DNA of 21,583 bases from a virus. The position numbers and the translations under genes are program-made. The notes under the pieces are model-generated. The model worked only from the letters and a program-made list of their open reading frames with translations. It was not told the origin of the DNA and did not search any database. Positions 2,795-18,730 of the stretch are shown here, one piece after another; position 1 is the stretch's first letter; each line of letters starts with the position of its first letter. The DNA lies in IMG/VR virus record IMGVR_UViG_3300037010_001654, positions 1-21,583 of that record, one strand, 5' to 3'.

Positions 2795-3814
2795 ATGAGT
2801 TCATCAGCACTGGCGAAAGCTCTGCTCGACGCAATTGGTCCGAACGACGAAGGACAAGAAGTCAAACACTGGCTTGATACCGGCTACCCGTTGTTGAATA
2901 AGATCATCAGTGGCGACTACGACAAGGGCATTCCGTGTGGTCGTATTATTGAAATGTTTGGTCCGCCATCTTCGGGCAAAACGTTGATCGCTACGCAGCT
3001 TATGATCGCCACGCAAAAGGCCGGCGGCTTTGCTGGCTTCTGCGATCACGAATACACCTATCAGATGCCGTTCGCTAAGAAGCTCGGTCTGAGCGACGGT
3101 GGCTCGAACTGGATTTATCGTCGACCGAGAACGTGGGAGGAGTCAAACACTATCGCGCTCAAAGCGGGTCAGATCATTCGCAAGAACAAGCTGGTGCCTG
3201 ACGATGCTCCGATTCTGTGGGTTTTCGATTCTGTCGCTGCAATGATTCCCAAGTCAATGTTGATGGACAAAGATGGCAGGGATCGCGGCATTGACGAGTT
3301 GAATATGAACGACACGACGGCCCTCTCGCGGGTCAGCTCCAGTACGTTGAAGGTTATCAATCAGATGACTGCCGAGCTGAATATGACGGCTTTGTATTTG
3401 AACCAAATTCGCACCAAGGTAGGTGTCGTTTACGGTGATCCGACTACGACGCCAGGTGGCGCCGCATTCGAGTTTTACGCTTCGGTGCGTCTTGCGCTCA
3501 GCAAGAAGCTGGTCAAGGACAAGGCTTCTGGCGATGTGGTCGGTCAAGTTACTGGCATCATGACCAAGAAAAACAAAGTAATTCGTCCATTTCAGGAAGT
3601 TGATCTGCGTTTGACTTTCGACGATGACGGCATGGCCCACTTCGACTTTACTAGCGGCATGTTGGACTTCTTGATTGAAAACAAGAAACTGGAAATGTCA
3701 GGTGCGTATATAAACTGGATTGACGGCAAGAAGTATTACAAGAAAGCGTTGGCTGAAAAAATTGAAGCTGAAGGTTTGCAGGAAGAACTCAAGACCTTGG
3801 TTCGGGCGGTCTAA
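2795..3814 (+). CDS. RecA/UvsX-like strand-exchange recombinase
   Basis: 339 aa, close to bacterial RecA in length. Walker A is GPPSSGKT (56-63). The catalytic Glu region is CDHE (83-86) and Walker B is ILWVFDS (D145). The L2 region carries LNQIRTK, a conserved Gln (Q204) and the GDPTTTPGGAAFEFYASVRL block, all of which closely track RecA. The protein would form filaments on single-stranded DNA and drive strand invasion for recombination-dependent replication and repair, working with the SSB and the UvsY-like protein. The start at 2795 has a strong AAGGAG site. The gene lies 40 nt after the exonuclease and is probably cotranscribed with it. Confidence 0.94.
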   Translation: MSSSALAKALLDAIGPNDEGQEVKHWLDTGYPLLNKIISGDYDKGIPCGRIIEMFGPPSSGKTLIATQLMIATQKAGGFAGFCDHEYTYQMPFAKKLGLSDGGSNWIYRRPRTWEESNTIALKAGQIIRKNKLVPDDAPILWVFDSVAAMIPKSMLMDKDGRDRGIDELNMNDTTALSRVSSSTLKVINQMTAELNMTALYLNQIRTKVGVVYGDPTTTPGGAAFEFYASVRLALSKKLVKDKASGDVVGQVTGIMTKKNKVIRPFQEVDLRLTFDDDGMAHFDFTSGMLDFLIENKKLEMSGAYINWIDGKKYYKKALAEKIEAEGLQEELKTLVRAV

Positions 3815-13568: not shown

Positions 13569-14690
13569 ATGGCAAAAGAAGATGTTAATAGCAAGGATAC
13601 GAAAAACACACCAATGAACCGAAGCGTTTGCGCCGCGAGGGTGGCCAAGCAGGACGAGTTCTATACGCGGTACGTCGACATCCAGAAAGAAGTCGAAGCC
13701 TATCTTGAGTTTGACTCAAATACCTTCCGAGATAAGGTCGTCTATTGCAACTGCGATGATCCATTCAAGAGCAATTTCTTCAAATACTTCGCCATCAACT
13801 TCAACAGGCTTGGTCTCAAAAAGCTGATCTCTACAGGTTTACCCATCGCCGGTCACGAAACATCCCAGAAGCTCACGGCGCTTGCTGTCATTCTCGATCA
13901 GGTGAAAGACGAAAACGGCGATGGCGCCGTGGACGTCACCGATGTCGAGCTTTTCCTCAAGCGCAACCAGACGGCGCAGATTGCGCTGAAAGGCAGCGCC
14001 GACTATCCCGGCGGCGATTTCCGCAGCCCGGAGTGCGTCGACTTCCTGAAACAGGCCGATATCGTCGTCACCAACCCGCCCTTCTCGCTGTTTCGCGAAT
14101 ATGTCGCCCAGATCGTGGCGCACGGGAAGAAGTTTCTCATCATCGGCAACAAGAATGCGATCACCTACAAGGGGGTATTCCCTCTTATCAAGGAGAACAA
14201 GATTTGGGTGGGGGCAACGGCATTTTCGAACGACATGTGGTTCGTTGCTGACTATATTGGAAAGTATAAAAAAGTAGTCGATGGAGTGAAGCTCATCAGT
14301 GTGCCGGCAATCTGGTTCGCCAACATCGACCACGGACGCCTTCATCAGGAACTGCCGCTCATGACTATGACGGACAACCTGAAGTTCAGCAAGCACAAGA
14401 AAATTCGCAGCAAGACGACCTATGACCGCTACGACAACTACGACGCCATCGAGGTGCCTTTCACCGATGCTATCCCTAGCGACTACGACGGCGTGATGGG
14501 CGTTCCCATTACCTTCCTCGACAAGTACAACCCGGAGCAGTTTGAGATATTAGGTGGCACCGAAAGTGAAGGTAAGGGCCGTTCAAATGGTCTGTGGTGT
14601 GGAGGGGCTACGCAAGCGTTAGTCAATGGCAGGAAAATCTATAAGCGCCTTTTCATTCGTCACCGCCGTCCGACCACAAAAGGGAAGTAG
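13569..14690 (+). CDS. EcoRI-family adenine-specific DNA methyltransferase
   Basis: 373 aa. The N-terminal KQDEFYTRYVDIQKEVEAYL, then VVYCNCDDPFKSNFFKYF, and the catalytic motif VTNPPFSLFREYV (NPPF at 169-172) match the EcoRI methylase family. These enzymes move a methyl group from S-adenosylmethionine to the N6 of adenine. No partner endonuclease is nearby, so the likely job is to protect phage DNA. At least nine GAATTC sites remain in this window (for example 2515, 3938, 6241, 12174), which is compatible with protection rather than avoidance, though phage family members need not share EcoRI specificity. The core (about 13900-14150) is visibly richer in GC than the small genes before it, which suggests a separate origin. 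The C-terminus (GRSNGLWCGGATQALVNGRKI) is complete. Confidence 0.9.
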   Translation: MAKEDVNSKDTKNTPMNRSVCAARVAKQDEFYTRYVDIQKEVEAYLEFDSNTFRDKVVYCNCDDPFKSNFFKYFAINFNRLGLKKLISTGLPIAGHETSQKLTALAVILDQVKDENGDGAVDVTDVELFLKRNQTAQIALKGSADYPGGDFRSPECVDFLKQADIVVTNPPFSLFREYVAQIVAHGKKFLIIGNKNAITYKGVFPLIKENKIWVGATAFSNDMWFVADYIGKYKKVVDGVKLISVPAIWFANIDHGRLHQELPLMTMTDNLKFSKHKKIRSKTTYDRYDNYDAIEVPFTDAIPSDYDGVMGVPITFLDKYNPEQFEILGGTESEGKGRSNGLWCGGATQALVNGRKIYKRLFIRHRRPTTKGK

Positions 14691-18091: not shown

Positions 18092-18124
18092 TTGTAAACA
18101 TAAGTCATTATTGACTATAATTAA
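18092..18124 (+). promoter_or_regulatory. Palindromic promoter for tRNA/tmRNA cassette
   Basis: The best-formed copy of the element. A -35-like TTGTAA (18092-18097), an 18-nt spacer and TATAAT (18116-18121) followed by TAA surround the perfect palindrome AGTCA (18103-18107), TTAT, TGACT (18112-18116). It lies 31 nt before the tRNA. A short A/T-rich hairpin (AAAACT/AGTTTT, 18072-18089) sits between it and the nrdB stop. Confidence 0.78.
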
Positions 18125-18151
18125 ACAAGTGAAAAGCAAGCAGTAACGAAT

Positions 18152-18225
18152 GCCGGGTTAGCTCAGTTGGCTAGAGCGCACGATTGATAAACGTGAAGAC
18201 GCCTGTTCGAGTCAGGCACCTGGCG
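18152..18225 (+). tRNA. tRNA-Ile (anticodon GAU)
   Basis: The cloverleaf is complete: acceptor GCCGGGT/ACCTGGC (one G-U pair), D-arm GCTC/GAGC, anticodon stem CACGA/ACGTG with loop TTGATAA (anticodon GAT), variable loop AAGAC, T-arm GCCTG-TTCGAGT-CAGGC. Two oddities: the last anticodon-stem pair (31-39) is A-A, and position 73 is G, whereas isoleucine tRNAs normally carry A73. CCA is not encoded (TCA follows). It is transcribed from the palindromic promoter just upstream and is probably processed from a joint transcript with the tmRNA. Confidence 0.88.
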
Positions 18226-18240
18226 TCAGAAATTGTCGTA

Positions 18241-18525
18241 ACCCCCTTGAAATTGAAGGTGTGTCGGACGCGGGGGCAGTGCCCGCCGCCTCCACCAAAA
18301 GAGTATCGCAGTATTCTTTTGATGGGGGCGACACAGATTCGACGGCGCATTTAGGTGGAGAGGGCGACACGGTAGGCGATGACCGTAAATCAAGCAAATC
18401 CAGTAAATGCAAACGATAGCACTTACCTGAAAGCCGCCTAAACGGCGATTTCGGGGCGCTCATCACGGTAGCAATACCGTCCTGGCAACAGAAGGATGAG
18501 GAGGTTGGTTCTCGCAAGAGAGCCT
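18241..18525 (+). ncRNA. ssrA: Circularly permuted (two-piece) tmRNA
   Basis: The parts occur in permuted order. First comes the acceptor piece, ending in a T-arm-like stem GCGGG/CCCGC, then CGCCTCC and an encoded ACCA (3' end at 18297). Next is a 26-nt intervening hairpin (AAAAGAGTA/TATTCTTTT, 18298-18323). Then the coding piece starts GGGGGCG at 18324, followed by ATTCGACGG, typical of tmRNA 5' ends. GGGGGCG pairs with CGCCTCC (one G-U). GCGCATTT (18345-18352) can pair with AGGTGTGT (18257-18264) as the P2 helix. A tag frame encodes ANDSTYLKAA (18409-18441), with the stop inside a GCCG/CGGC hairpin, then ACGGTA-GCAA-TACCGT. The T-loop GGCAGTG is not the usual TTCRANY. tmRNA frees stalled ribosomes with SmpB and tags the product for proteolysis. 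The outer ends (about 18241 and 18525) are estimates. Confidence 0.85.
18409..18441 (+). other. tmRNA tag reading frame (ANDSTYLKAA)
   Basis: The resume codon is GCA at 18409, followed by AAC GAT AGC ACT TAC CTG AAA GCC GCC and TAA. The start AND and the C-terminal Ala-Ala are typical of proteobacterial tags. The usual final LAA is KAA here, with Leu two residues further in (LKAA). Such a change near the protease-recognition end could alter ClpXP handling of tagged proteins. Confidence 0.85.
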
Positions 18526-18656
18526 ACTTCGAAGCTGACGGCAAAGTCCGGCAAGTCCGGCAAGTCCGGCAAGTCCGGCATTGCCGGAGTGTCTCTGCTT
18601 AGTTCTGTTTTTACAGACAACGCAATTCGGTCGTCAGCCGTCAGCTTCGAAGTAGG
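18523..18656 (+). repeat. 20-bp perfect inverted repeat after tmRNA
   Basis: CCTACTTCGAAGCTGACGGC (18523-18542) and its exact complement (18637-18656) enclose 94 nt. The loop contains four tandem 9-bp units, an inverted GCCGG copy (18583-18587) and a small hairpin TCTGT/ACAGA. The structure starts where the tmRNA body should end. It may be a 3' processing or protection stem, a terminator-like element without a clear T tract, or a small inserted element. Confidence 0.8.
18544..18579 (+). repeat. Four tandem AAGTCCGGC units
   Basis: Four identical 9-bp copies of AAGTCCGGC occur in a row (18544-18552, 18553-18561, 18562-18570, 18571-18579), followed by ATTGCCGGA, whose GCCGG is complementary to part of the unit (CCGGC). 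Perfect identity implies recent slippage expansion or selection for repeated binding or pairing sites. The units lie inside the 20-bp inverted repeat. Confidence 0.92.
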
Positions 18657-18730
18657 GCGACCACAAAGGTATCGCCATGTAATACGTGAGTCGGAATCGT
18701 AACCTGATAAACTCTTTGAAAGGAGAGCGC

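Follow-up and report, generated by a model that had tools for sequence, protein, structure and literature searches.

Two-piece tmRNAs carried by phages have been described before. Buchholz et al. (2022) reported tmRNAs in 402 of 18,146 phage genomes, with 53 of the 133 distinct ones being two-piece and mostly aquatic, one of which was detailed (PMC9004378), and a tmRNA database from 2025 holds 79 phage sequences (PMC11915505). An earlier, sequence-only reading of the DNA considered here had assumed that a permuted tmRNA on a phage would be new; as such genes were previously reported (PMC9004378), the novelty is lower than that. We found no tests of the function of a phage two-piece tmRNA in infection in the cited literature. 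The aquatic-phage genes (Melnitz and others, PMC9004378) and those of IMG/VR contigs are permuted and phage-borne, and many have a CGGTAGGCGATGACCG..AATCAAGCAA core; the Melnitz gene is alphaproteobacterial and lies under a glutamine riboswitch (PMC9004378), whereas the only other Rfam family adjoining our gene is a tRNA. Mesorhizobium phage Cp1R7A-A1 (MT188704) is 97% identical to our locus over 36 nt, covering the T-arm and acceptor, but its tmRNA differs in having an alpha-type body (112 bits), a spacer of about 93 nt and the tag VAANDNHFEARALAA. This permuted tmRNA is unannotated, and lies at 2913-3298 of our locus L292, which corresponds to about 58.68-59.06 kb of MT188704.

The window, by which we mean the whole 21,583-nucleotide stretch of viral record IMGVR_UViG_3300037010_001654 that was analysed, adds a divergent and apparently intact member to these phage-borne permuted tmRNAs. 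We are highly confident, judging by its sequence, that the locus is an intact circularly permuted ssrA gene in a phage. The Rfam model tmRNA_permuted (RF04321) is matched from end to end by positions 18234-18441 of the + strand, at 138 bits and an E-value of 1.9e-27 against a gathering cut-off of 47 bits, and ARAGORN independently called a permuted tmRNA with the tag ANDSTYLKAA followed by a stop. The betaproteobacterial model (RF01850, beta_tmRNA; cut-off 84 bits) matches 18189-18531 with 107.5 bits, compared with 106.7 bits for the alphaproteobacterial one (RF01849, alpha_tmRNA; cut-off 50 bits), a near tie that does not separate the Rfam subtypes. The covariance-model check put forward in the sequence-only reading, which took zero matches as grounds for rejection, thus returned RF04321, RF01850 and RF01849, all above their cut-offs.

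The anatomy of the gene, which lies entirely on the + strand, can be followed base by base. The acceptor piece (18234..18297, its 5' end being approximate), as delimited by the RF04321 alignment and covariation, holds the 3' strands of P2, the T-arm, the 3' half of the acceptor stem, A73 and an encoded CCA. Its T-arm, GCGGG-GGCAGTG-CCCGC, occupies 18270..18286, with G54 and G58 in the loop at 18275-18281; A18294 (A73) followed by CCA at 18295-18297 can be read directly, as can the pairing of G18326 (G3) with U18291 (U70) that constitutes the alanine tRNA signal. Next comes a 26-nt intervening hairpin, AAAGAGTATCGCAGTATTCTTTTGAT (18298..18323), which belongs to an inverted repeat at 18287-18305/18312-18330 and is predicted to be removed in processing; viral relatives have spacers of comparable size, many of them hairpin-bearing. 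The coding piece (18324..18524), set by the RF04321 and RF01850 alignments and by its pairs, contains the 5' half of the acceptor stem (GGGGGCG, 18324-18330), the D-loop region, P2, the PK1 stem, the tag reading frame, a CTCATC/GATGAG stem and a terminal hairpin (18507-18524). The tag frame, GCA...TAA at 18409..18441, was given by ARAGORN and by the end of the RF04321 match; an Ala resume codon and a stop are present, and the encoded ANDSTYLKAA ends in Ala-Ala. Beyond the RF04321 model lies the TGGCAACAGAA element (18483-18493), with the CTCATC/GATGAG stem, an element common to the alpha consensus and one Burkholderiales gene. Folding of 18324-18670, a range that takes in a long 20-bp stem, gave z = -5.0. 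The junctions in the sequence-only reading, namely a CCA end at 18297, a hairpin at 18298-18323 and a coding start at 18324, are base-exact by sequence reading; its outer limits have shifted, with the acceptor piece starting near 18234 and the coding piece ending in the 18507-18524 hairpin. The mature RNA would, very probably, consist of two pieces.

This structure is upheld by covariation. We aligned the window with ten relatives, both viral and bacterial (11 sequences), and scored 31 pairs from the acceptor stem, the T-stem, PK1, a local hairpin and the two segments of P2; 17 of the 31 pairs changed on both sides. Standard pairs fill 93.2% of cells, whereas shuffles reach 79% and slid registers 43-61%; for covariation the alignment scores 0.479, compared with 0.182 for shuffles and at most 0.141 for slid registers. 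The acceptor stem, T-stem and P2 are 100% paired in every row, and P2 and PK1 are conserved with compensatory change; the local hairpin (18245-18248/18256-18259) is retained in only part of the aligned set. The complementarity of acceptor stem and P2 noted at the outset is borne out by 7/7 and 5 + 6 standard pairs respectively, covarying in relatives, and the T-stem has 5/5 standard pairs in the window, four of which vary on both strands among relatives.

Which of the known types does this gene resemble? With betaproteobacterial permuted tmRNAs, the nearest bacterial rows in our tree, it shares the gene order, acceptor stem, P2, PK1 (CGGTAGGCGA-GACCG), resume region AAATGCAAACGA and terminal hairpin, but its RF01850 score of 107.5 bits compares with 169-296 for the betaproteobacterial genes found, and they have a TTCRAYT T-loop and ANDExxALAA tags whereas the window has GGCAGTG and ANDSTYLKAA. 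With alphaproteobacterial permuted tmRNAs it shares the T-loop GGCAGTG, but differs in the sequence of PK1, P2 and the coding region. The loop had been called atypical in the sequence-only reading, which holds with respect to the textbook TTCRAYT but not more widely, as this is the usual alphaproteobacterial loop and is found in further viral tmRNAs too. Indeed, a genome scan placed GGCAGTR in a tmRNA setting in at least 117 bacterial contigs, the named ones being nearly all Alphaproteobacteria; the Rfam alpha consensus T-loop is GGCgGUA, and two guanines were noted at the same place in the T-loop of the R. americana mitochondrial tmRNA (PMC1168896).

In the T-arms counted, positions 54 and 58 of this loop follow a simple rule. 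Across 191 distinct T-arms they read T-A in 66 and G-G in 125, with no mixed arms, the bacterial G-G counts being biased because most such loci were located by that loop, and the viral counts being unbiased; a second set held 66 T-A and four G-G among 70 viral T-arms, T-A in 21 of 21 Burkholderiales T-arms, and again no mixed ones. A parallel tally of the 3-70 pair does not count as evidence, since the search patterns largely fixed it. In the tree, TTCGATT rows surround the window (GGCAGTG), and the sister row of L338 (GGCAGAG) likewise has TTCGATT; a joint change of both positions therefore seems to have occurred repeatedly. Such a pattern favours selection over decay, and the loop therefore looks maintained; we infer that the G-G pair substitutes for the usual 54-58 contact. 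The joint change offers a simple test of how far the tRNA-like domain tolerates the loss of the TΨC signature. The T-arms of the window (18270-18286), L338 and L383 can serve as examples for the T-A or G-G rule.

The relatives of this gene are largely viral. A pattern of CCA, spacer and coding start was found in at least 120 viral contigs, as was the PK1 core pattern CGGTAGGCGATGACCG..AATCAAGCAA, and two scans of this yield suggest that permuted tmRNA genes are common in viral metagenomes; among the new loci listed for the PK1 core, ARAGORN made 85 calls, every one of them permuted. In bacteria, a slightly looser PK1 core was found in one of 369 genomes from the class of one Burkholderiales-type genome, a label read from the strong RF01850 matches of bacterial genes, and 28 of 200 genomes from that genome's family held permuted tmRNAs above the cut-off, 26 of them at >140 bits. 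In a tree of the matches listed, the window groups with viral rows (32 rows, support 89/95), and the viral rows join Burkholderiales-type genes in a group of 50 (support 88/87); the window's own branch is long (0.56), and its precise position is moderately supported (91/80, not starred). An earlier and wider tree put it in an all-viral group of seven rows (support 96, starred), apart from alphaproteobacteria. The closest copy among the matches listed, L322, is 76% identical over 161 columns, and no near-identical copy was found among them. By sequence, then, the tmRNA would belong to a virus-rich lineage beside the Burkholderiales type, in which the data suggest that a large share of viral permuted tmRNAs falls. 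The sequence-only reading had proposed capture from a host by the phage; given that the nearest matches listed are permuted tmRNAs of viruses that border on the Burkholderiales type, descent within viruses accounts for the gene equally well. Capture from an alphaproteobacterium, hinted at by the T-loop, finds no support in the rest of the sequence in either tree.

The surroundings of the gene are those of a phage. The contig encodes SSB, an exonuclease, RecA, SbcCD, RuvC, an EcoRI-type methylase, NrdA, NrdB and ThyX, and the tmRNA cassette is flanked by nrdB and by a small gene for a zinc-ribbon protein. A 112-kb viral contig (L005), whose NrdB is 74% identical, has the same order SbcC-RuvC-NrdA-NrdB-...-PLD-ThyX-MazG, and neither it nor L006 has a tmRNA after nrdB; since the order is conserved in L005 and the tmRNA absent there, the cassette was either gained in this lineage or lost in others, and a chimeric assembly is unlikely. 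The RF04321 match, the phage neighbour genes and this synteny bear out the proposal of a permuted tmRNA on a phage, and the sequence around the gene places it in a phage genome rather than in a bacterial chromosome or a chimera. The source phage belongs to a group of roughly 110 kb. The sequence-only reading took it to be lytic, which goes beyond what a fragment of 21.6 kb can show. Among 14 related virus records, one (G002, a 110-kb relative) has a permuted tmRNA match, at another genome position (L139, 1501-1817, - strand), its spacer being about 130 nt long and its tag ANDDYIRAAA. The tmRNA stretch was not found in the other viral contigs compared, and the contigs of near-identical relatives end before the tmRNA region. 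A search that used the downstream zinc-ribbon gene to locate relatives gave nothing, and a host assignment through the annotated phages closest in NrdB and SbcC (of Pseudomonas syringae and Rhizobium) was rejected, these being too distant at ~42% identity. The EcoRI-type adenine methyltransferase (13569-14690; Pfam EcoRI_methylase, 375 bits) is an orphan, and possibly guards against host restriction.

Two further features on the + strand separate the nrdB stop (18073) from the tmRNA. A consensus scan found a putative promoter, the promoter-like site TTGTAA-18-TATAAT, at 18092..18121 (10/12 matches, with 0.6 such sites expected in shuffles of the region); directly upstream of the tmRNA is a tRNA-Ile with anticodon GAT, called by ARAGORN at 18151..18227 and by the Rfam tRNA model at 18152-18225 (60.3 bits). 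Transcription from a promoter at about 18100 would then yield an RNA that carries the tmRNA precursor along with the tRNA-Ile; RNase P and the enzymes that process tRNA 3' ends would cut at 18323/18324 and 18297/18298, and the two RNAs would stay joined through the acceptor stem and P2. SmpB was not found in the window or among the 14 related records searched, and the tmRNA therefore depends on host SmpB; together with host AlaRS, this would load the tmRNA, which would rescue ribosomes stuck on non-stop or damaged mRNA in infection, appending ANDSTYLKAA to the unfinished proteins. We lean towards a tmRNA that is active in trans-translation during infection. Should RNAs of this kind function in infected cells, phages would handle ribosome stalling themselves.

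The tag has a rare ending. Lys as its third-last residue (a KAA ending) occurs in one of 133 bacterial and none of 102 viral ARAGORN tags, and in none of the 85 among further matches listed. Nearly all viral tags found end in LAA, MAA, VAA or IAA, so that viral tmRNAs generally seem to keep the degradation signal. For recognition by ClpXP the terminal Ala-Ala matters most, and changes to the antepenultimate Leu raise KM modestly (PMC7652416); with Ala-Ala kept and Leu replaced by Lys, degradation of proteins tagged with ANDSTYLKAA is therefore expected to be weaker, not lost, and by this analogy they may be degraded more slowly. The rare ending could also represent relaxed selection on the tag. 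Elsewhere in the virus-rich permuted set (L322-L432), which has one shared PK1 core, several tags are very long, up to ~31 aa, such as ANADTFDFSAMSFTGNTVRGAANESRFALAA.

How else could this locus be read? That it is a tRNA-like sequence or a chance fold might be suspected from the tRNA-Ile directly upstream, tRNA overlap being a known source of false tmRNAs (PMC11915505), but that tRNA stops short of the tmRNA, at 18225-18227, and the idea is refuted by the RF04321 match over the whole model at 138 bits, the covariation in 11 sequences and the conservation of TGGCAACAGAA beyond that model; we regard its chances as negligible. A genuine gene could still be a decaying or passenger copy, acquired with the neighbouring tRNA, transcribed at best and with no role in infection. 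The long branch and the odd tag ending would fit this, as would the lack of a tmRNA after nrdB in L005 and L006 and of any permuted tmRNA in 13 of the 14 related records, the remaining one carrying its copy elsewhere. Decay, however, should break pairs, whereas all helices are intact with compensatory changes, positions 54 and 58 changed jointly, and the tag frame is open and has its stop, which makes such a copy quite improbable.

Less probable still is that the RNA acts as a decoy, sequestering host SmpB or ribosomes instead of performing full trans-translation, as for mycobacteriophage DS6A, whose CDS-less (tag-less) tmRNA-like RNA inhibits endogenous tmRNA according to a work cited in PMC11915505. 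The tag of our gene is atypical at its third-last residue, but the tag frame, resume codon, stop, alanine signal and pseudoknot region are all kept, and a pure decoy needs none of them. An intact gene that takes part in trans-translation remains our preferred reading. A more elaborate version of it, in which a viral tmRNA lineage evolving separately from its hosts gave rise to a copy whose T-loop went from T54-A58 to G54-G58 and whose tag changed from ALAA to LKAA, with ribosomes still freed but tagged proteins degraded more slowly than with the host tag, strikes us as a long shot when taken as a whole.

The 3' end of the coding piece overlaps a perfect 20-bp inverted repeat (18523-18542/18637-18656) around 94 nt with tandem AAGTCCGGC copies; inverted repeats of 14-mers with a spacer of up to 150 nt occurred in none of 30 shuffles. 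We considered an inserted mobile element and rejected it, as the arm has no exact copy in viral contigs and no target duplication is visible. RNase III participates in 3' processing of the one-piece tmRNA (PMC3968760), and by analogy the repeat could be a candidate 3'-processing stem and RNase III cut site. The gene is thus mildly unusual in two respects: the third-last Lys of its tag, and this perfect 20-bp repeat at its 3' end.
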